Of a DNA stretch of 64,000 nucleotides, positions 41,983-53,694 are shown piece after piece (the stretch's first letter is position 1; each line of letters starts with the position of its first letter). The DNA lies in the NCBI GenBank assembly GCA_002685255.1, contig NYWU01000038.1:1-64000 (forward strand). The letters are read 5' to 3'. The stretch comes from Idiomarinaceae bacterium (GTDB taxonomy: Bacteria > Pseudomonadota > Gammaproteobacteria > Enterobacterales > Alteromonadaceae). Both the position numbers and the translations under genes were made by a program. The notes beneath the pieces were generated by a model, which was not told the DNA's origin, did not search any database, and saw only the letters and a program-made list of their open reading frames with translations.

Positions 41983-42082
41983 TATCTATCCAGCTTGTTG
42001 TTTTATTGTTATTCTACATTTTAATCTTTAATTAACAAGACACGGTATACCGATTTTGTTGGTCAGTTCATTGGAGAATAAA

Positions 42083-43348
42083 GTGAAGAAGCATTTTTAT
42101 GTTGTACTCTTTGCCCTGCTACTTGGGACGCTCTCAAGCGCTAGCGCTCAGCCAGCAAATCGTTATGTACAATATGACAGCAAGATAACGTTTAAGCCGG
42201 ATGAAGCAGGCATCAGTGCCGATGTAACTTTAATCATCCCGACTTCACTGCTCCAAAACCAGCAACTGACGCTGCTACTCAGCCAGCAACAATCGATATC
42301 TCATATATCGGGCACTCAGTTGAAGTCATATGCGATTGAGACATCAACTCGTGTCCCGCCATGGAATCTCATTACACTCAACTTCAAATACACCCAACAA
42401 CCTTCCTATAGCGTAAATTTAAAGTACGCCGGCTTCATCGATGAAACTGCAGGCCATGGTAACTACATCAACAAGCAAGGCGCTCACCTCAGTATCGATT
42501 CCGCATGGCATCCTTTTGTCGCTGACTTCGCGACCAAAATGACGGGAAAAGTTCAACTTACAGTGCCTACAGACTGGGCGCTTTTTAGCCCAGGTCACCA
42601 GCAAAGGCTTACAGCGGATAGCCGCTTAGTCATTAACGATATGCCCGCAATCGACGTCGTATTATTTGCTCAACGAGCGCCCCAAATAAAAACCGTTAAC
42701 AACGTAGAAGTGATTTATCAGGACATCACATCAACCAAAGCACAACGCTTAGCCGATGATGGTAGTCAGTGCCTGACTGCGCTTAACGCGAATATGAGTT
42801 CGGATAATCAACTTGCTCGAGCACACCTGATCGTTTTAGAGCGCAACGGTCCGAGTTTTGCTCGGGGTCATTATATTTCAATGAGCAAAGCGAGCCTCTC
42901 AACCCGCCAGGCTGACTATCAGTATGTTTGTCATGAGTTAGCACATCATTGGACACCCTTTGCCAATGCGATGTCTCACGACTATTGGATGATGGAATCC
43001 TTTGCTGAGTACATCTCGGCACAACAACTCAAACGCCGCTTTGGCGAGCAGGCCTATCAACAGGTCGCTGAGCGCTGGCAACAACTTGCAAAAGGTGTTG
43101 GTTTTGTATGGCGTGCCAATACCCCCGAGCGTGCATCACATCGGGTTAATTATGGCTTAGGTCCGCTGCGCCTGACACAATTAGCAAACCGGATAGGCAA
43201 TAAAAAATTTGCTCAGTTACTCGCGTGGTATACTGCCAATGACGTAACCGAAACCGAGCAGCTCCTCAATAAAATAGGTGAGATCACGTCTGCTACCACA
43301 CAAGCCTGGTTCACAAAGCAATTAGGTCAAAGGGAAAGAAAAAAATGA
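42083..43348 (+). CDS. Exported M1-like (gluzincin) metallopeptidase
   Basis: About 421 aa, starting at GTG 42083 (MKKHFYVVLFALLLG) with GGAG 6 nt upstream. A signal peptide (cleavage after ASA/AQ, about 22) precedes a beta-rich N-terminal half and a catalytic domain with zinc motif HELAHHW and the third ligand in MMESFAEY, spacing typical of M1/gluzincin peptidases (HExxH-x18-E). Expected to be a periplasmic or surface aminopeptidase-like enzyme. Divergent from the membrane-fusion protein gene. Confidence 0.82.
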   Translation: MKKHFYVVLFALLLGTLSSASAQPANRYVQYDSKITFKPDEAGISADVTLIIPTSLLQNQQLTLLLSQQQSISHISGTQLKSYAIETSTRVPPWNLITLNFKYTQQPSYSVNLKYAGFIDETAGHGNYINKQGAHLSIDSAWHPFVADFATKMTGKVQLTVPTDWALFSPGHQQRLTADSRLVINDMPAIDVVLFAQRAPQIKTVNNVEVIYQDITSTKAQRLADDGSQCLTALNANMSSDNQLARAHLIVLERNGPSFARGHYISMSKASLSTRQADYQYVCHELAHHWTPFANAMSHDYWMMESFAEYISAQQLKRRFGEQAYQQVAERWQQLAKGVGFVWRANTPERASHRVNYGLGPLRLTQLANRIGNKKFAQLLAWYTANDVTETEQLLNKIGEITSATTQAWFTKQLGQRERKK

Positions 43349-43516: not shown

Positions 43517-44218
43517 ATGAACAAATGGATCTTGGCGCCTACGCTCGCCGCAATTCTTGCTACTTCTGGTTGTATGTCTAACGGTTCTGGTAACGAACAA
43601 GCCGCAACTATGAACCGAGTTGATGCCATTGCTGCTTTATCTACAAACATTGAAGAAGTTGGCTTTAATCGTGTCGAAATCAGCCCAGGCGTCGATGAGG
43701 TGTTAAATATTTGCGCGTCAATTTTAGAGCGTCAATACAGCGTCATGGATGAATACCGTACGCAAGCGGAAAATCATGCCGATGTGCAAGCTTTCCTTTT
43801 TGCTCATCAAGGTAAAACACCAGAACAGTTGCAAGCCGCCATCCTCGAATTCGATGCCGGAGCGACCACCGAAGACGAAAAAATCGGTCCCAAAATCACC
43901 GCCTATCAAGCAGCGATTGATGAAGTTTCCGAACAAAATACGCAGCTCGGTATTGAGCTCGCCGCGCAGCTTATTAAGTTAGGTTATCTGACAACCCAAT
44001 ACAGCGGAGAAATTGCCAAAGCAACCGCCGCTAATTGGTTGGGCGGTATGATGATGGCCGATGAGGAGCGCACTGCAGACAACGATGTTGCACTTGCATT
44101 GCTACGCGCCAAAGATCAGCTCAGTCTCGCATCCGATGCCAATGAATTGATTTCTCTTGAACAAGAGACCATCGAAGCCATCGATGGTTTGCAAGCAGAA
44201 CTCGAAGCAAAAGGCTAG
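43517..44218 (+). CDS. Lipoprotein, first gene of the envelope operon
   Basis: A 233-aa lipoprotein (lipobox TSGC, Cys19). The mature part is almost all helical, with few aromatics, resembling a coiled helical bundle (residues 45-230). Start ATG with GAGGG 7 nt upstream. No recognised domain. The next gene begins 2 nt after its stop. Its position at the head of the operon and lipid anchor suggest an outer-membrane-attached scaffold. Confidence 0.75.
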   Translation: MNKWILAPTLAAILATSGCMSNGSGNEQAATMNRVDAIAALSTNIEEVGFNRVEISPGVDEVLNICASILERQYSVMDEYRTQAENHADVQAFLFAHQGKTPEQLQAAILEFDAGATTEDEKIGPKITAYQAAIDEVSEQNTQLGIELAAQLIKLGYLTTQYSGEIAKATAANWLGGMMMADEERTADNDVALALLRAKDQLSLASDANELISLEQETIEAIDGLQAELEAKG

Positions 44219-44220
44219 GC

Positions 44221-45159
44221 GTGCGTTTCTCTGCGCCAGCGCTAGCGGTCGTTTCACTGCTAGCGCTCAATCCGTCGGTTCACGCGCAAGAGCAACCGCA
44301 ATGGGTCAATGAACTGCCCCACTCTGATAATCAAAATTATCGCGCGGTCGCAACAGCCGAGACACAAGCACAAGCGATGCAAGCCGCTTTAGCGGCTATT
44401 GCAGAGCAAGTCGCGATGTCCATTCGTAGTGAATCGCTGAGTCGCTACGAGAAACAGTCAACCGGACAGTCCACACAAACCCAAACCCGTTTTACACTTA
44501 ACGTGGCCGGACAGTCGGTTCCTTTACAGTTTAACGATATCAGTCCCGAGCAAAGCTATCGCCATGCCGATGGCTCAATCAGCGTAAAAGTGGCTGTGAG
44601 CAAACAGGCCGTTAGTAACTTCTTACAAAACCAAATTGCACAGTATCGCTCGTTGCGTTTTCCTTCAGACGCCAGTGCATCGCAGCAATTGCTTTGGAGT
44701 CTACGGTATAAAGAACCATTAAAAACGGCTAATGCATACGCGCTCGCACTTGAACAGATTGATCCGACACAATCGAATAACCCCTTCAAGAATCAGTTGA
44801 GCTTGTTGACTCAAGCGGAACAATCTCTCGGACTCCGTATTGTTGCCAGTCGCAACTTAAACGCGTTGGTTGGCGTCATTCAACGGCACACACCGACGCA
44901 TAGTGAGCCTAACCTATGGTTGCAACTGGAACAAAAGTCGCAACAACGCGCTCAGGGCAGCCTTTATTTGCACCGCCAGCAACTCATCGCATCGGTGACC
45001 GAGCCGAGTTCTCCGTTTCGGCAATTGCACCAGCAAGTGATCGAAGTGATTGGCAAAGGCCCAACGCCAGATGCGGCGGCCGCGGATGCAAAGAACCAAC
45101 TTAAATCAAAAGTCGAACAGCCTGTTTCAAATTGGCTGTTTGACGCTAGCTCAGAATAG
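44221..45159 (+). CDS. Periplasmic LPP20-like protein
   Basis: A 312-aa exported protein (GTG start; signal peptide ending VHA, about 22). The mature N-terminus EQPQWVNELPHSDNQNYRAVATAE followed by an Ala-rich helix (TQAQAMQAALAAIAEQV) is the pattern of the LPP20 domain, also found in FlgP-type proteins. A second related stretch near the C-terminus (VIEVIGKGPTPDAAAADAKNQLKSKV) suggests a repeat of the same fold. Part of the eight-gene operon; the next gene is 8 nt away. Confidence 0.7.
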   Translation: MRFSAPALAVVSLLALNPSVHAQEQPQWVNELPHSDNQNYRAVATAETQAQAMQAALAAIAEQVAMSIRSESLSRYEKQSTGQSTQTQTRFTLNVAGQSVPLQFNDISPEQSYRHADGSISVKVAVSKQAVSNFLQNQIAQYRSLRFPSDASASQQLLWSLRYKEPLKTANAYALALEQIDPTQSNNPFKNQLSLLTQAEQSLGLRIVASRNLNALVGVIQRHTPTHSEPNLWLQLEQKSQQRAQGSLYLHRQQLIASVTEPSSPFRQLHQQVIEVIGKGPTPDAAAADAKNQLKSKVEQPVSNWLFDASSE

Positions 45160-45167
45160 GAATAACC

Positions 45168-46298
45168 ATGAAGAACACCTTTAAAATCGCTTTATCACTG
45201 GCTGCCGCCGCCGTACTATCGGCCTGCCAAACCACTCAACCGGCGCAGCAGACACAGTCAGGTCAAGTGAGCAATCGCGCCTCTAACGCAGTCATAGCTA
45301 AGAGTGCCTATCGCTTTGAAGATAAAGACATCAAAGTCCCTGCTTACTTTGATACGCAGGGGCTGGCAAACTGCAGCTTCGATCGAAACAATGAAAACGA
45401 TAGTTGCCCACTTAAAAAGCCTATCGTGCGTATGTACTTTAGCGGTACCGACGTCGGTGGTGAGGGTCAAGGCGTCGACGCGCTGCGCCAGTACGACGAT
45501 AGCCAGTTACTGAAAATGCTGGAAAACCAATTTGCGGGGATTAACCGCTTCCGCATCGTTACCCGCGATGACAGTGTCATCGCAGAAGAAAAGCAGCTAC
45601 AACTCGAGCAACAAGGCGCCAGCACTGTGGCAAGGACCGCTGCCAATCGTCGTATCTTACAACCCGATTATGTCGTTAAGCTCGATACACTGCGTACCGT
45701 TAAAAACGAAGGCAGTATCACAGGCTGGATGGACTACACCTTAGAGCTGACTGCCGCGACCATCGACCCCTATACCCGTGAGATGTTGTCATACCCTAAC
45801 CTCGGCAAAATCCGAGTCAAATCCGAAGATGTGCGTGATCGCAGCGAGCTGAAATACGTCATGGCCAACAACCGTTATGTGAGTGGTTACCGCTACTTTG
45901 ATAGTGCCCATGTCAACGCCGTGATCAACGATATGGCATCGCGTGGTATTGATATCTTACTTACACGCATGCTGTCGGAAATGCCCGCGACTGCACAGGT
46001 GTTAGGCATTAAAGGTAACCAAATCAGCCTTGACCGCGGTCAGAACGCGGGCGTTTTACCGAATGAAACCATGATTATTTTCCAATACAGCGCAGGTTTT
46101 GTCGAACCTATCGGAGTGGCGAATGTGAACCCATCGCGCAATAGCGCCATGGGTGAAATGACGCTGTGGAAAGATTCATCATTAGCGGACACTATCTCAG
46201 CACAGGCGCAAGCAGGCATATACCGTCCAACCAATAGCGCTAAGATTTTTGCTGTATCGGTCGGTACCCCCGCTAATTTCTTGGAGAACCGTACATGA
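45168..46298 (+). CDS. CsgG/LpoB-like lipoprotein
   Basis: A 376-aa lipoprotein (lipobox LSAC, Cys20). Residues about 80-250 have the CsgG/LpoB/TolB-N pattern: a beta strand (KPIVRMYFSGTDVG), a helix (SQLLKMLENQFAGINRFRIVTRD), a helix with EEKQLQLEQQG and ILQPDYVVKLDTLRTVKN. The C-terminal part (VLGIKGNQISLDRGQNAGVLPNETM) resembles the FlgT C-terminal SH3-like domain. CsgG-like lipoproteins form outer-membrane pores or activate synthases. Four-nt overlap with the next gene. Confidence 0.72.
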   Translation: MKNTFKIALSLAAAAVLSACQTTQPAQQTQSGQVSNRASNAVIAKSAYRFEDKDIKVPAYFDTQGLANCSFDRNNENDSCPLKKPIVRMYFSGTDVGGEGQGVDALRQYDDSQLLKMLENQFAGINRFRIVTRDDSVIAEEKQLQLEQQGASTVARTAANRRILQPDYVVKLDTLRTVKNEGSITGWMDYTLELTAATIDPYTREMLSYPNLGKIRVKSEDVRDRSELKYVMANNRYVSGYRYFDSAHVNAVINDMASRGIDILLTRMLSEMPATAQVLGIKGNQISLDRGQNAGVLPNETMIIFQYSAGFVEPIGVANVNPSRNSAMGEMTLWKDSSLADTISAQAQAGIYRPTNSAKIFAVSVGTPANFLENRT

Positions 46299-47689
46299 TA
46301 AAAGCGTTTGGAGTTAAACCTGCGCTGCTCTCTGTCATGCTGGGGCTAACTTCGACGAGCGCCCTAGCACAAGATCTAAACATCTTATTAAGCGGTGAGA
46401 TTCAAGCAGATCGCTGCGCTTATGGGCGCGGCGCCAGCGCTATCGAACAAGCAAAAACTGAAGCACTAGCAGACATCGCACGGGCACTGCAATCGGGCAA
46501 AGTACTGAGTATCGCCGATACCTATGAGGAAATGGACACCGCCAGCACCACGTGGTTACAACAACTCAGTGATATGGCGCAAACGGGCTACGACCTGCGC
46601 GGCCTAAAAACCAACACATCAAAGCCCCGCCTGGAAGGTACAGATACGTGTGTAACGGTCAGTGTCGTTAAACAAACACTCGGCACAGCAACGACTGACG
46701 AAGGTAGCTGGGATGATGCGCAAACCATCGTATCGGTCACGGTCGTTGGTGAAGGTTGGCCTGATAGCCAACAAGGCATGAGTGCGCGCGAAGCGGCCGA
46801 GCTCGATGCCTTGCGTCGTGCTATTTCTCAAGTCGTCGGCGTATGGCTTACCGAGCAACGCACGCAATACTCCAATACCGTGAGTCATACCAATGACACC
46901 AGCGACAACTTTGCGATGAACGACTTTGTGGCTCGCCAGTTGCAAACCAAATCCTCAGGCGTGGTTAAGCAATGGCAATTAATAGACTCAAAAGCTATTG
47001 CCGATGAGGGGGTACAGGTCACACTGCGTGCCGATGTTGAAAAGCAAAAGCTTGAAATCGCTACGTCACACATCATGCAACAAATTGGCTCGCCACGTGT
47101 CGCCGTCAATGCACCGGCCCCACTTGATAGTGAGTTAAAACGTTGGCTCTCAAGTCAAGGCGTTGAACTCAGCGAAAATGCCAACCTTATCCTTAATGCT
47201 AAACCTCGCATGATAGAACGCGACGGTACGGCGCGCCTCTATTTGCATGTTGAAGTCACGGATCAGGCAGGCAACATCTACGGCGAATGGCAAAACGATC
47301 CCACACTGATCGCATTGCCCAACGCCCAAGACGCTCTATACGACTTAATTGACGTGCACCTGTCACTGGATGCTCAACAAAAAGCGTTACGCCAACAGCT
47401 AGGCGATGCGTTCATGCGTGTCGTACAAGAAGGTGGGCTCGTACATGATGTGTATATCAACAGCCGCTATCTCGCTAAACCCGAACGCCTGTCAGGCGTC
47501 ATTTCTACGCTAGGTGGCGCACAAGATGTCAGCATATCTAACGACGGCAAATTTTATAAAGCCCAACTGCGCTTTAGTGGCAAAACCGGCGACCTGGTTG
47601 CTGCGCTACAACAATCTTTGCAGCCTATTACAGCCGCTGAATTACCGAAGGCGGTTATCGCCAATGAATTTACCATTCGATTTAACTAG
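46295..47689 (+). CDS. Periplasmic protein with FlgT-N-like domain
   Basis: A 464-aa exported protein (signal peptide to ALA, about 25). Residues about 140-260 (VTVVGEGWPDSQQGMSAREA, then ELDALRRAISQVVGVWL) match the FlgT N-terminal/LPP20 fold, where a mixed sheet packs against an AR..A..A helix. A similar pattern starts at about residue 30 (GEIQADRCAYGRGASAIEQA) so the fold may be duplicated, and a CsgG-like region follows. Member of the envelope operon; 21 nt before the next gene. Confidence 0.68.
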   Translation: MIKAFGVKPALLSVMLGLTSTSALAQDLNILLSGEIQADRCAYGRGASAIEQAKTEALADIARALQSGKVLSIADTYEEMDTASTTWLQQLSDMAQTGYDLRGLKTNTSKPRLEGTDTCVTVSVVKQTLGTATTDEGSWDDAQTIVSVTVVGEGWPDSQQGMSAREAAELDALRRAISQVVGVWLTEQRTQYSNTVSHTNDTSDNFAMNDFVARQLQTKSSGVVKQWQLIDSKAIADEGVQVTLRADVEKQKLEIATSHIMQQIGSPRVAVNAPAPLDSELKRWLSSQGVELSENANLILNAKPRMIERDGTARLYLHVEVTDQAGNIYGEWQNDPTLIALPNAQDALYDLIDVHLSLDAQQKALRQQLGDAFMRVVQEGGLVHDVYINSRYLAKPERLSGVISTLGGAQDVSISNDGKFYKAQLRFSGKTGDLVAALQQSLQPITAAELPKAVIANEFTIRFN

Positions 47690-47710
47690 TAAGACCATAA
47701 AGGACAGAAT

Positions 47711-48997
47711 ATGAAACGCACCTTACTTGGCCTAGCAATTATTGCAGGCATCAGCGGCGCCGCCCAAGCACAAGATTTTGATTTAACCGATATGACCCCT
47801 GCTCGCCCTGGGCAAGAAGTAGAGAGTACATCCACAGTCACTGAGGGCAATATCGTCGTCGGTAATAATGAAAAGGAAGCAGTCGCTGTTGCGCACCAAC
47901 AATTGGTTGATAACAGCGAAGACGGCATTCGCTTAATTCAGGTCGGCAGTGGCACAGGCATTCTGTCGATTGGTAGCGCGTTCTACCAAACTTACGACAA
48001 CATGAACGCCACCTTGCTATCGAAGCGCGCGGCATACAACCAAGCTGCACTCATCGCCAAACGTCAGTTGGTTTCAAACGGCAAAGGTGTTGATGTGACC
48101 TGTAACAACCTCGCTGAACTGACGATCGATACCATCGATACGGGCACCGATTCAGTGGCTAACGAAACCTCAGGTATGAAAGAGCGCTGCATTGAATCAG
48201 TCAACGGTTCGCTCGCCGGCTATGTAACCTACGACGTTTACGACGACGTGGATAGTAATCAAGTACGGATTAGCCTAATCTCAACACCTAAAACGCGCTC
48301 TCAAGTGCGTGAAAATGCCGGCGCAGCGATTGTTACCAGCGATCCTAACGCGCTTTTCAAACAAATCGTTACTGATATTAACACCGGTGTATTACCACCG
48401 ATGGGCGCTAAGATCCTCACTCATGCCGATACAGGCGAAGTCATTCTAATGGGGTATGGCTCAGCGATTGTCCGTGATAACGATAATCCTCGTGTCGCAA
48501 AACGTCTGAAAGATGTCGCTAAACGTCAGTCAGAAACACGTGCGCGAGCAGCATTATTGGGCACCATGAAAGGTGAGGAAGTATATTGGCAAGGCGGCTT
48601 TAACGAAGAACAGTTAGAGAGCACCCAACAGTTTGAGTACACCGATCCCAATCTACAAGATCCAACAAGAGTGAAAAAGTTAGATAATGATCGCACTCAG
48701 TTCATGAATCAACTTAAAGCAAGTGATGAGTATCAAGCAATCGCAAGCGGAACATTACCTGCTGGTGTACAAACCCGTAACTTTGTTAGCGCGGATGGTC
48801 ATTGGCAATATACCGTAGCCGTTCACTCGCCCACGTTCGAAGCTATCGCGAAAGAGGCGCAACGTGAAATGCAGGGTCGCGGTAGCGCTCAAAAAGACAG
48901 TTCGGGTCGCGCAATTAACATCTACGGCGGTGACAATGACAAAGCAGCCAACCCACAGGGCGCGTCAGGCAAGGTATCTGAGGACGATAACTTATAA
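47711..48997 (+). CDS. Periplasmic protein with duplicated LPP20-like region
   Basis: A 428-aa exported protein (signal peptide to AQA, about 20). Two internal stretches show the helix of the LPP20/FlgT-N pattern: LSKRAAYNQAALIAKRQLV (about 104-122) and KRQSETRARAALLGTMKGE (about 275-293). The C-terminus is low complexity and polar (GGDNDKAANPQGASGKVSEDD). It is not a named family that I recognise. It overlaps the next start by 1 nt. Confidence 0.65.
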   Translation: MKRTLLGLAIIAGISGAAQAQDFDLTDMTPARPGQEVESTSTVTEGNIVVGNNEKEAVAVAHQQLVDNSEDGIRLIQVGSGTGILSIGSAFYQTYDNMNATLLSKRAAYNQAALIAKRQLVSNGKGVDVTCNNLAELTIDTIDTGTDSVANETSGMKERCIESVNGSLAGYVTYDVYDDVDSNQVRISLISTPKTRSQVRENAGAAIVTSDPNALFKQIVTDINTGVLPPMGAKILTHADTGEVILMGYGSAIVRDNDNPRVAKRLKDVAKRQSETRARAALLGTMKGEEVYWQGGFNEEQLESTQQFEYTDPNLQDPTRVKKLDNDRTQFMNQLKASDEYQAIASGTLPAGVQTRNFVSADGHWQYTVAVHSPTFEAIAKEAQREMQGRGSAQKDSSGRAINIYGGDNDKAANPQGASGKVSEDDNL

Positions 48998-49743
48998 TGG
49001 CGAGTTGCTTCGTTAAAACTACACTGTTTGCGTTCTGCGGATGGGTTGCCTTGGGCAGCTCATCCGTGACTGCGAATGAGCTCACTTTGCTGAACCGTTA
49101 TCAGCAGCAAACGACTGAACAAGGTGTCGCTGTTAGGGCGGAGTCTGACCTACCGGCACAAGTCGATCAGAAAGCGTGTCGTTTACTGTTGAGCAAACCG
49201 CAACGGTTGGCATTAAGAACAGAACTGAGCGATACACTCGGATTTGAGATTACCGACAGCGTCAGCTTTTTTGCGGGTCGCATCGATAACGAAAAGCTCT
49301 GGACGGCAGACGGCTGGCAGCACTGCAGTGGCGAAGTCGTCATCGAAAATAAGTCACTTAATCTTGCAGCGCTAGCTGTACGCGCAGCTTGGCAAATGCG
49401 CGGCGAGCTAGAGCAAGCACAATTAAAACAACTGCTGCAAGTGAGTTTAAGTGAGCCCTATAGTAGTGCCGACGCGGTGACCCTTATCGCGCACCTCGCG
49501 CCTGAGCCACGTCAATTTGCCTATTTACAACAAAACTTACAGGCTGACCAACTCACGCTTGATGTCGCCAAGCAATCCGCCGCACAACTGTATTTTAAGC
49601 AACAAGATTACGCACAAACCATAGCTATCACATCCACATGTAAAAGTATCGACTGTCAGCGTTTGCGCTTACAAGCCGAGCAACAGAAGGAAAAGCAAGA
49701 TGCCGAAAAGGCCTTTGACTTGGACAGCTACTTTAATCCTTAG
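48997..49743 (+). CDS. Exported hypothetical protein of the envelope operon
   Basis: A 248-aa protein with a signal peptide (about 1-27, ending VTA/NE). The mature part contains four cysteines (for example QKACRLL, WQHCSGE, STCKSIDC), probably paired in the periplasm, and a helical C-terminal half with TPR-like spacing. Its end overlaps the transglycosylase gene by 44 nt, a strong sign of translational coupling. No family assigned. Confidence 0.65.
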   Translation: MASCFVKTTLFAFCGWVALGSSSVTANELTLLNRYQQQTTEQGVAVRAESDLPAQVDQKACRLLLSKPQRLALRTELSDTLGFEITDSVSFFAGRIDNEKLWTADGWQHCSGEVVIENKSLNLAALAVRAAWQMRGELEQAQLKQLLQVSLSEPYSSADAVTLIAHLAPEPRQFAYLQQNLQADQLTLDVAKQSAAQLYFKQQDYAQTIAITSTCKSIDCQRLRLQAEQQKEKQDAEKAFDLDSYFNP

Positions 49744-50842
49744 TAGTTTTGCATTTTCCGCATTGGCACAAGATGCAAACACTGAAGACGAAGCATTCGC
49801 GCAGTTCGCTGCACAACAGCGAGCCGAATTTGAGCAGTTTGAGCGTGAGCATTGGCAGGCGTTTGAACAGTTTGCCAAACAATGGCGCGAAGCGGAGTCT
49901 GCTTACAAAAAACAATTGGCACAGGTGTGGGAAGAACCACAGCTCACCGACAAAAAACGCTTTATTCAATACAGTGAGGATGCCTCAGAGCGCACCGTCG
50001 TTGACTATGAGCGCAACACCGTCACCGTAGAAGTGCAAGGTCGTTTGACTAAGGCACAGCTTAAGCAAAGACTACAACAGCGACTTAACCAACTCAGCAC
50101 GACCACTGTAACTAACGCATTAAAATCAGATCCTGTTATCAAGCAGTTACCGCAGGCGGTGCAACAAACAATAGAAGTTGAGGACAATACGCCCATTCTA
50201 GACGCTCAGCCAAGCGTTGATAGCACCGCCGAAACCACTCAAGAAGCGACAGCCAAGACCAGTAAAATAACTGTTAAGTTACCGCCTAACAGTCAACAGG
50301 CACGTATCAAGCGCGTGTTACCAACGGTTGAGGTTTACGCACAAAAACATGGCTTATCACCCGCTTTGATACTGGCGATCATCCACACAGAGTCCAGTTT
50401 TAACCCAATGGCACGATCGCATATTCCGGCCTTTGGCTTGATGCAAATTGTGCCAACGTCCGCGGGCAAAGATATCAGTGATTTTTTATACGGTGAGCAA
50501 CAGCTATTTAGCCCCGCCTACTTGTTCGACCCCGCTAATAATATTCAGGCGGGTAGTGTCTACTATTACCTGCTTAATCGCCGCTATTTTAAAACGGTTC
50601 GCAACAATGAAGTACGTGAGCTTTTATCAATTGCAGCTTACAACACCGGGCCAGGTAACGTAGCCCGTACCTTTGGCAACGACTACTCGCTAGCCCAAGC
50701 CAGTGCAGCAGCAAATAAAATGAGCCGCGAGCAGGCTTACCAACATTTAATGACTTATTTACCCGCACAAGAAACGAAAAACTACCTGCGCAAAATTACG
50801 CAGCGCCAAACTAATTACCAACAAATGATGGAAGCGTTCTAA
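49700..50842 (+). CDS. Lytic murein transglycosylase, MltC-like
   Basis: A 380-aa exported enzyme (signal peptide to ALA, about 23). An N-terminal domain of the DUF3393 kind (about 25-195, very Gln/Glu-rich helix first) precedes an SLT catalytic domain with catalytic Glu in IIHTESSFNP, then AFGLMQIVPTSAG, AGSVYYYLL and IAAYNTGPGNVARTF. MltC-type enzymes cleave the MurNAc-GlcNAc bond and make 1,6-anhydro ends. Unlike MltC it has no lipobox. In this operon it could open the peptidoglycan for assembly of the other products. Confidence 0.9.
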   Translation: MPKRPLTWTATLILSSFAFSALAQDANTEDEAFAQFAAQQRAEFEQFEREHWQAFEQFAKQWREAESAYKKQLAQVWEEPQLTDKKRFIQYSEDASERTVVDYERNTVTVEVQGRLTKAQLKQRLQQRLNQLSTTTVTNALKSDPVIKQLPQAVQQTIEVEDNTPILDAQPSVDSTAETTQEATAKTSKITVKLPPNSQQARIKRVLPTVEVYAQKHGLSPALILAIIHTESSFNPMARSHIPAFGLMQIVPTSAGKDISDFLYGEQQLFSPAYLFDPANNIQAGSVYYYLLNRRYFKTVRNNEVRELLSIAAYNTGPGNVARTFGNDYSLAQASAAANKMSREQAYQHLMTYLPAQETKNYLRKITQRQTNYQQMMEAF

Positions 50843-51453
50843 TGAAAAAAACTTTACTCGTACTTAGCTTATCAGCGCTATTGACCGCCTGCTCGTCACA
50901 GCCGCAACAGCCCACTGCACAGCAAATGCAACAACAAGCACAGCAGCAAACGAATAGCGATATGCAAAAAGTAACTGGCAACCCAAACGATACCGCGCCC
51001 AGCTGGGTATTTAATCCGAAATCAGACAAGGGCTTGGCGGCTTCATCGTGCGTCGATTGGTCAGGTAATATGGCGGTCGATAAACCGCAAGCGATTGCAG
51101 CAGCACGCGCCGACCTGACGCAACAGATCCAAGTTAAAGCAAGCGTGTTGGATAAACTCTACAACCGCAAAGTACAGGCCGAGGGCGGCAGCTCGGTAGG
51201 CGCTACGTTTGAGCAAGTGTCTAAGCAGGTGGCGAGCGAAACATTAGTGGGCAGTACGCCAGAAGAGATGGCAATGGCACGGATTGATGGCAAAAAATAT
51301 CTATGTGCTTTGGTTGTTTTGGACGAAACCCGCGACACCTTTGATGCGATTATTGACGCCTCAAAACGCACCATCGATCCGCAATCAAAAGAAGCACTCT
51401 ACGAAGAGTTCCGCGCCCAAAAAGCCATGAAAGAACTCGAGGCCGAACTGTAG
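50842..51453 (+). CDS. LPP20-family lipoprotein
   Basis: A 203-aa lipoprotein (lipobox LTAC, Cys17) followed by a Gln-rich linker (QQPTAQQMQQQAQQQT) and an LPP20 domain: APSWVFNPKSDKGLAASSCVDW and KPQAIAAARADLTQQIQ. LPP20/FlgP-like lipoproteins assemble outer-membrane rings or basal discs in some bacteria. It overlaps the transglycosylase gene by 1 nt and ends the operon. Its stop TAG is the foot of a REP array. Confidence 0.85.
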   Translation: MKKTLLVLSLSALLTACSSQPQQPTAQQMQQQAQQQTNSDMQKVTGNPNDTAPSWVFNPKSDKGLAASSCVDWSGNMAVDKPQAIAAARADLTQQIQVKASVLDKLYNRKVQAEGGSSVGATFEQVSKQVASETLVGSTPEEMAMARIDGKKYLCALVVLDETRDTFDAIIDASKRTIDPQSKEALYEEFRAQKAMKELEAEL

Positions 51454-51630
51454 GTCGCGCCTTTGGCGCGACAGCCCATACATCTCATCAACGCCCGACG
51501 TAAGTCGCGCCTTTGGCGCGACAACCATGCATCTCGTCAACGCCCGACGTAAGTCGCGCCTTTGGCGCGACAACCATGCATCTCATCAACGCCCGACGTA
51601 AGTCGCGCCTTTGGCGCGACAGCCATGCTT
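51450..51630. repeat. Four type A REP units in a 49-bp tandem array
   Basis: GTAGGTCGCGCC TTT GGCGCGAC begins at 51450 and recurs at about 49-bp intervals with spacers ACAACCATGCATCTCGTCAA-like. Later units read GTAAGTCGCGCC. All four palindromes are the same type and orientation, unlike the alternating arrays elsewhere. The array lies between the envelope operon and queH. Confidence 0.9.
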
Positions 51631-51690
51631 TCTTTTTTCCCAAAAAAATGCACAATACTGGGCATCTGCTCAAAACAACGGATGCCCACC

Positions 51691-52335: not shown

Positions 52336-52413
52336 GTCGCGCCGCCCGTCGACGTACGTCGAGCCTTTGGCGCGACACGCGGATTGCCCCGTGCGCAAAA
52401 TGCGCACGCTACC
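52332..52413. repeat. REP pair between queH and dps
   Basis: A type A element with an insertion or decay (GTAGGTCGCGCC...TTTGGCGCGAC) and an intact type B in reverse (CGTGCGCAAAATGCGCACGCTAC) fill the gap between the convergent queH and dps genes. Confidence 0.85.
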
Positions 52414-52935
52414 TTACCGCTTCAACTCGCCCGAAGACGATTCAATGTGAGCGCGAACAAACCACTGGAACTGTTCTAAATCACCCAACTGACCTGTCAG
52501 CATATCTTCCGATACCGGATCAACCTCGCTCAACTCATCGATGGCTTTCCGATGGTCACCGTTGACGCCAATGTAGACTTTATCAAGCTCAGATAAATGC
52601 TCAGCAACTAAGCCCTTACCGATCGAATAATCTTTCCATGAGCGCTTTCTCACAACCGCTTCTGGCGTTCCTTCTGGCACACCGCCTAAGGTCGCGATTC
52701 GCTCTGCAATGGTGTCTGTCATTTCACGTACCGCATCAACCTGCGGATCAAGCATCTCATGCACACCGATGAAATTTGGACCCACCACGTTCCAATGAAC
52801 ATGCTTTAAAGTAAGCTGAAGGTCGATAAGCGCAACTAAGCGGTCATCGAGCAGAGCGATGGCCTTTTGAGCAGCATCCTCTTTCAAACCCGGAGCAGTA
52901 AATCCAGCGACTTTTGCATTCTCAGTATTGCTCAT
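52414..52935 (-). CDS. dps: Dps-family DNA-binding ferritin
   Basis: A 173-aa four-helix protein. Ferroxidase ligands of Dps are recognisable in LTLKHVHWNVVGPNFIGVHE followed by MLDPQVDAVREMTDTIAER. Dps oxidises Fe(II) with hydrogen peroxide, stores iron and protects DNA as a dodecamer. The N-terminal tail has few Lys residues, so DNA binding may be weak. Ends convergently near queH with a REP pair in between. Confidence 0.9.
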   Translation of the reverse strand: MSNTENAKVAGFTAPGLKEDAAQKAIALLDDRLVALIDLQLTLKHVHWNVVGPNFIGVHEMLDPQVDAVREMTDTIAERIATLGGVPEGTPEAVVRKRSWKDYSIGKGLVAEHLSELDKVYIGVNGDHRKAIDELSEVDPVSEDMLTGQLGDLEQFQWFVRAHIESSSGELKR

Positions 52936-53001
52936 TATTCCTCCTTCCTTTAAATTCCATTCACCTATACCTACGGCATCATCTGCTCATTGGATCGGTC
53001 G

Positions 53002-53584
53002 CGTAACGTGCGCCTTTGGCGCACGGGTGATATCAACCACCGACGTAACGTGCGCCTCTGGCGCACGGGGCGATATCTGATGTCGCGCACAATGCGCGAC
53101 CTACGTATGACGGCCGTACCGACCACCCGCGTAACGTGCGCCTTGGGCGCACGCGCGGTATCTGATGTCGCGCACAATGCGCGACCTACGTATGACGGCC
53201 GTACCGACCACCGGCGTAACGTGCGCCTTTGGCGCACGGGGCGATATCTGATGTCGCGCACAATGCGCGACGTACGAGATGGCGGCGGTATCAACCACCG
53301 GCGTAACGTGCGCATTTTGCGCACGGGGCGATATTTGATGTCGCGCACAATGCGCGACCTACGTATGACGGCCGTACCGACCACCAGCGTAACGTGCGCC
53401 TTTGGCGCACGGGCGATATCTGATGTCGCGCACAATGCGCGACGTACGGGATGGCGGCGGCATCAACCACCAGCGTAACGTGCGCCTTTGGCGCACGGGC
53501 GGTATTTGATGTCGCGCACAATGCGCGACGTACGGGATGGCGGCGGTATCGAGCACCGGTGTAACGTGCGCCTTTGGCGCACGG
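53002..53584. repeat. Large REP/BIME array with 86-bp period
   Basis: GTAACGTGCGC feet occur at 53002, 53044, 53131, 53216, 53303, 53389, 53474 and 53561: one 42-bp step and then six steps of 85-87 bp. Each long unit holds a type B palindrome (GTGCGCCTTTGGCGCAC or loop variants), a spacer GGGCGATATCTGAT, a type A palindrome (GTCGCGCACAATGCGCGAC), and a second spacer ATGACGGCCGTACCGACCACC or the variant GATGGCGGCGGTATCAACCA. The ORF track entries over this array are artefacts. No gene is seen between 52936 and 53694. Confidence 0.93.
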
Positions 53585-53694
53585 GACAAACTCGACGTTG
53601 CACACGATAATTGCTTTTAATCAATCCCACTCATATAATAATCACAGGCAAACGTTATAAATATATTAAAAAAATAAACAAGGTTTGGTAAAAC

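Follow-up and report, generated by a model that had tools for sequence, protein, structure and literature searches.

The 64,000-nucleotide (nt) stretch of an Idiomarinaceae bacterium analysed here (contig NYWU01000038.1, called the window throughout) contains an operon of eight genes, g1 to g8, encoding exported proteins, several of which have the folds of flagellar ring proteins. We put the chances about even that their products build one envelope complex, namely a collar anchored in the outer membrane, composed of a divided FlgT and of LPP20 proteins and seated in the wall by g7. More broadly, and tentatively, the operon may encode a horizontally spread, non-flagellar ring machine of the outer membrane whose components are shared with the flagellar H-ring and basal disk, as a separate use or a source of such accessory rings. 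The mobility of the operon, its occurrence in at least three architectures, the apparent distribution of FlgT over two genes and the coexistence with flagellar flgP-flgT in the same genome go beyond a preliminary description made from the letters of this DNA alone. The genes are the following:

g1, 43517..44218, plus strand: lipoprotein (Cys19), 233 amino acids, no known family
g2, 44221..45159, plus strand: exported LPP20-domain protein, 312 amino acids, GTG start
g3, 45168..46298, plus strand: lipoprotein (Cys20), 376 amino acids, modelled fold of the FlgT middle and C-terminal domains, CsgG-like
g4, 46295..47689, plus strand: exported, 464 amino acids, putative FlgT_N/LPP20-related domain at about residues 150-253
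g5, 47711..48997, plus strand: exported, 428 amino acids, probably two LPP20/SHS2-type repeats
g6, 48997..49743, plus strand: exported, 248 amino acids, four conserved cysteines, weak TPR-like signal
g7, 49700..50842, plus strand: exported MltC-type lytic transglycosylase, 380 amino acids, without lipobox
g8, 50842..51453, plus strand: LPP20 lipoprotein (Cys17), 203 amino acids

Layout, export signals and protein folds

All eight open reading frames lie on the plus strand between 43517 and 51453, with intergenic spacings of 2, 8, -4, 21, -1, -44 and -1 nt. The coordinates and strand confirm the tightly spaced eight-gene operon of the preliminary description, the largest gap being 21 nt. A scan of named genomes yielded 43 loci, in which neighbouring operon genes are at most 30 nt apart in 243 of 259 cases. 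The N-terminus is hydrophobic in at least 30 of 33 members per family in these loci, in agreement with the claim that all products are exported, and the lipobox cysteines proposed for g1, g3 and g8 proved to be correctly placed and conserved. The lipobox is kept in 41/43 g3, 37/37 g8 and 36/43 g1 proteins and is uncommon in g2, g4, g5, g6 and g7. Cysteine numbers are steady in g4 (two in 39/40), g5 (two in 31/33) and g6 (four in 33/33), a constancy that suggests periplasmic disulfides.

The structure of g3 was modelled with AlphaFold2 from 30 sequences (predicted local distance difference test score, pLDDT, 81.4; predicted template modelling score, pTM, 0.74). In Foldseek the model matched the flagellar LPHT ring chain 8z5n (5.2e-11) and the FlgT crystal structure 3w1e (2.7e-10); matches to CsgG, starting from 3.0e-6, ranked behind FlgT, and a CsgG-like core fold is present. 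The modelled fold of g3 is of the FlgT/CsgG type, as had been expected from the early assignment of this protein as CsgG/LpoB-like with a FlgT-C-like end. Profile comparison with hhalign gave 4e-5 for FlgT against g3 and 7e-5 to 2e-4 for FlgT against g4, comparable to the positive control FlgP against FlgT (1.5e-5 to 4.5e-4). A g4 homologue from the permuted, type-II architecture described below (L029) matched FlgT_N with 1.9e-8, above the Pfam cut-off, and g4 homologues gave weak LPP20 and FlgT_N matches. Single-sequence Pfam scans of g3 and g4 gave no usable match, and searches of PDB sequences with single g3 and g4 and with profiles of g3, g4 and g5 returned nothing useful. The relation of g4 to FlgT_N, also proposed previously, is supported by hhalign and by the distant homologue but not proven. 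The N, middle and C domains of FlgT would be spread over g3 (Foldseek) and g4 (hhalign and the type-II homologue), with all three found in no single gene.

The window proteins g2 and g8, taken alone, score just below the curated Pfam cut-off for LPP20 (g2: 2.4e-5, 0.8 bits below; g8: 1.5e-3, 6.6 bits below). Matches to LPP20 were obtained for 17/26 g2 homologues (best 2.5e-9) and 14/25 g8 homologues (best 7.6e-8), the g2 profile matched the solved structure 4kzs (HP1454) with 5.5e-16 and g8 matched 5ok8 (Lpp20) with 9e-9. In addition, g2 and g8 resemble each other (2e-9 to 4e-9, hhalign). Both can be assigned to LPP20 (PF02169) through their homologues and the solved structures, in line with the LPP20 domains first noted at 44221 and 50842. 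For g5, four of 22 homologues matched LPP20, and a low-confidence model (pLDDT 57) contains two beta-alpha-insert-beta-beta units; its best fold match is FTT1539c (4qvr, 4e-8), an uncharacterised immunoreactive Francisella protein present in outer-membrane vesicles (PMC10963506). Thus, of the duplicated LPP20/FlgT-N-like domain suggested at 47711, two LPP20/SHS2-type repeats are probable, at low confidence only. The hhalign matches g8-g1, FlgP-g8 and FlgP-g3 were dropped because they covered little beyond the signal peptide, as was FlgP-g1, which starts at the signal peptide; comparisons of small five-row alignments were uninformative.

The SLT transglycosylase described at 49700 (Pfam SLT 1.1e-22) is specifically of the MltC type (NCBIfam 3.6e-48; PDB MltC 5.6e-69). 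Besides SLT, g7 shows MltC_N similarity, its catalytic motifs are intact and the catalytic Glu231 is invariant in 21/21 aligned proteins; the invariance was read from the alignment, as a strict motif pattern was too narrow and missed some members. A lipobox-like motif was present in only 4/38 g7 proteins and absent from the window g7. A separate canonical MltC was not seen in the Idiomarina carriers G000, G001, G009 and G010; carriers G002, G012 and G017 have both. Weak TPR-like signals were obtained for a few g6 homologues, and type-II operons contain a TPR protein. g1 accompanies g3 even in the minimal loci of Aliidiomarina.

The search for recurrent neighbours around the loci mainly returned a protein of 258-270 amino acids that belongs to no Pfam family, seems to cross the membrane once and adjoins g7 in nine loci (L026, L040, L041, L043, L055, L059, L060, L071 and L074). 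The same protein is part of the type-III loci described below (L110 13509-14321, L111 12882-13688), and it is possibly an inner-membrane partner.

Distribution, mobility and relation to the flagellum

Among 19 Idiomarina genomes eight contain g3, and a synteny check showed that the seven carriers other than the window's genome (2.77 Mb) have the complete set of eight in an identical order. Operon proteins of carriers within the genus are as divergent as 31% identity; the window g3 and its counterpart in Idiomarina sp. MD25a share 99% identity. Carriers were found in Idiomarina, Pseudidiomarina, Aliidiomarina, Alteromonas salexigens, Shewanella, Pseudoalteromonas, Colwellia, Litorilituus, Marinobacter nauticus, Vibrio, Photobacterium, Enterovibrio and Aliagarivorans, and among metagenome-assembled genomes (MAGs). 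Most loci have the full set, those of Vibrio and Photobacterium begin with g2-g1, the g5-g6 pair is missing from several, and in Aliidiomarina only g1-g3 are recognisable. Of 296 genomes sampled from the GTDB order, 10 matched, and a sample of the class added one weak match outside the order. A search of viral contigs found no relative, and one of plasmids a single match, an 805 kb Pseudoalteromonas record in which the operon is annotated mostly as hypothetical.

Three architectures can be told apart. Type I has the gene order of the window. Type II has a permuted arrangement, occurs in five genomes within the order and in its complete form (L032) consists of a g1-like lipoprotein, g3, g4, a TPR protein, a g5-sized protein, g8, g7 and g2; here g3, g4, g7 and g2/g8 were recognised by profile and g1 in one locus (L031), and the g5 and g6 counterparts were assigned by position and size, not by sequence. 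Type III, present in two Idiomarina genomes that lack type I, comprises five genes in the order one-membrane-span protein, g2, CsgG/FlgT-like lipoprotein, g8 and g7, the CsgG/FlgT-like lipoprotein being assigned by position and weak similarity only. Of the findings that the preliminary description had named as evidence against its reading, a scattered distribution of the genes is the only one that applies, and only in part: strains differ in whether they carry the operon, but where it occurs the genes remain linked.

The genes flanking the operon are unrelated between genera. In an operon-free relative (G018, L116), a peptidase-like and a queH-like homologue are separated by only about 0.5 kb, which contains an array of palindromic repeats, and in the window the same peptidase-like gene is located upstream and a queH-like gene downstream of the operon. 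In the g3 tree Alteromonas salexigens falls within an Idiomarina group (Shimodaira-Hasegawa-like approximate likelihood ratio test, SH-aLRT, 99), and Shewanella occupies two distant positions, one of them beside Vibrio. Since the operon is patchy, its flanks are unrelated, an empty site exists in a relative and the tree mixes genera, the operon seems to move as a unit. Horizontal transfer is the simplest reading, supported but not proven, and repeated loss could contribute.

Palindromic repeats around tcgcgcctttggcgcga are dispersed in the window, at 51449-51632, at 52353-53605 and at other places, and often form tandem arrays; one array lies directly 3' of g8, and repeats of this type are abundant in L116 and L010 as well. 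The M1-peptidase-like gene of the window (42056-43348) is open; in the close relative L009 (11118-11657) it matches in pieces in different frames and may be broken. Upstream of g1, the loci L037, L038, L042 and L072 share one and the same block of genes, most of them divergent, whose products include a trypsin-like protein and further exported proteins.

The flagellar genes flgA, flgM, flgN, flgP and flgT of the same strain are located together on another contig (G000:C5), flgA, flgM and flgN being named from sequence and order. FlgT is present in 19/19 genomes of the genus, compared to 8/19 for the operon. No flagellar gene recurs among the operon neighbours, as the preliminary description had already noted for the window. 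No flagellar sigma consensus was detected in the leaders of 44 operons, each scanned over at most 250 nt, the best sites having 3/12 mismatches for sigma-54 and 5/16 for sigma-28; upstream of flgA and flgM/flgP of the strain itself two mismatches were found for each, in a crude consensus test in which the control region was longer than the operon leaders. Because of the separate flgA-M-N-P-T set, the universal presence of FlgT in the genus and the lack of a flagellar-type promoter, the operon is not the flagellar H-ring locus of the cell.

A possible envelope complex and competing explanations

FlgP, FlgT and Lpp20 share the SHS2 fold, and FlgP builds concentric rings (PMC12222027). In the complex we propose, the three lipoproteins g1, g3 and g8 would provide the anchor in the outer membrane. 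The frame would be a divided FlgT, to which g3 would contribute the middle and the C-terminal, CsgG-like part and g4 the FlgT_N-like part. The SHS2-fold proteins g2, g8 and probably g5 might join this frame and form a periplasmic disk or at least one periplasmic ring, similar to FlgP and FlgT at the flagellum. g6, with its TPR-like signal, and g1 could act as adaptors, and g7, which has no lipid anchor, would open the peptidoglycan locally to let the collar take its place across the wall. Such a complex would be an accessory structure, mobile among marine gammaproteobacteria and separate from the flagellar H-ring. As to the benefit for the cell, our guess is a reinforced outer-membrane site or a portal.

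We infer the physical assembly, the ring geometry, the opening of the wall and the non-flagellar use, and several points weigh against them. Over the whole chain, g3 reaches only low TM-scores against FlgT (0.26-0.28), and the likeness is one of individual domains. The model of g5 is weak, and its SHS2 insert seems, at this low confidence, to be helical and not the beta-hairpin of FlgP; ring formation in the family has been tied to the insert that follows the SHS2 helix, ahead of the second strand (PMC12222027). Flagellar rod genes are present in 34/35 tested carriers. Furthermore, FapH and, in co-immunoprecipitation and two-hybrid experiments, FlgP are interaction partners of H. pylori Lpp20 (HP1456) and HP1454 (PMC11756786).

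The last two points, together with FlgT as the closest fold to g3, favour a flagellar accessory, an extra ring or disk at the polar motor that would add to or modify the FlgO/P/T H-ring in some strains. We nevertheless consider this explanation rather unlikely, as the operon has neither a recurrent flagellar neighbour nor a flagellar sigma consensus and is patchy in a genus in which FlgT is universal. Deletion of H. pylori Lpp20 left motility, and also bacitracin resistance, normal (PMC11756786). The only carrier without a rod gene is a 1.6 Mb MAG, possibly incomplete, and the flagellated fraction of carriers carries little weight, as flagella are nearly universal in these marine genera.

CsgG as second fold match of g3, the lipoprotein anchor and a wall-cutting enzyme within the operon would fit a secretion channel, in which g3 would be a CsgG-like outer-membrane pore exporting a polymer or protein, with the other products as gate and collar. 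This is improbable, and the pore is the weakest part of the ring-or-pore idea of the preliminary description, because FlgT fits g3 better than CsgG and no substrate gene or inner-membrane energiser recurs next to the operon, though the one-span protein does so in nine loci. A role in cell-wall maintenance, in which g3 would act on a wall synthase as LpoB does, g7 would serve in turnover and the LPP20 proteins would link outer membrane and wall, has even less to recommend it: LpoB Pfam matches were weak (best 0.011) and limited to 5/30 g3 homologues, and the modelled g3 fold is much closer to FlgT and CsgG. The MltC type of g7 and the Idiomarina carriers without a separate MltC would be in keeping with it, but several carriers retain the canonical enzyme and no wall synthase gene recurs nearby. 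Finally, a patchy, mobile envelope operon might block infection by phages or serve another defence, which is highly improbable given that none of the eight proteins has a PADLOC match and no defence genes recur nearby.

If the proposed collar exists, FlgT/LPP20-type parts, so far studied in accessory rings as parts of the motor, would also be general outer-membrane scaffolds. The idea is testable, as the eight genes form a defined set that occurs in culturable members of Shewanella, Pseudoalteromonas and Vibrio. The operon might also be a candidate for the unassigned envelope complexes in cryo-tomograms of such genera, for instance the Shewanella vesicle complexes (PMC8455137).

Comparison with known systems

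The full-text literature searched, whose scope excludes most subscription journals, contains papers on flagellar rings and no description of this gene set, which is weak evidence in agreement with the earlier statement that it is not a described system. The closest relative is possibly the H-ring of Vibrio-type motors, consisting of FlgO, FlgP and FlgT (PMC6375700): g3 is predicted to fold like FlgT, g4 appears FlgT_N-like, g2 and g8 share the LPP20/SHS2 fold of FlgP, and both systems include outer-membrane lipoproteins. In contrast to the H-ring, the operon seems to divide FlgT over two genes, has more LPP20 proteins and a dedicated transglycosylase, is unlinked to flagellar genes, lacks a flagellar-type promoter, is patchy and mobile, and coexists with flgP-flgT. 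The H. pylori pair HP1454/HP1456, encoded in one operon, is similar in that g2 matches the HP1454 structure and g8 that of Lpp20, and in that LPP20 proteins are co-encoded outside the flgP operon; species and context differ. With the curli secretion lipoprotein CsgG, g3 shares the predicted core fold and the lipoprotein anchor, but its fold score is below that of FlgT, it has an additional C-terminal part, and curli genes are absent from the recurrent neighbourhood. Like MltC, g7 combines SLT and MltC_N similarity with invariant catalytic residues, whereas the window g7 lacks the lipobox, is borne by the operon and has counterparts that occur alongside a canonical MltC in some carriers.

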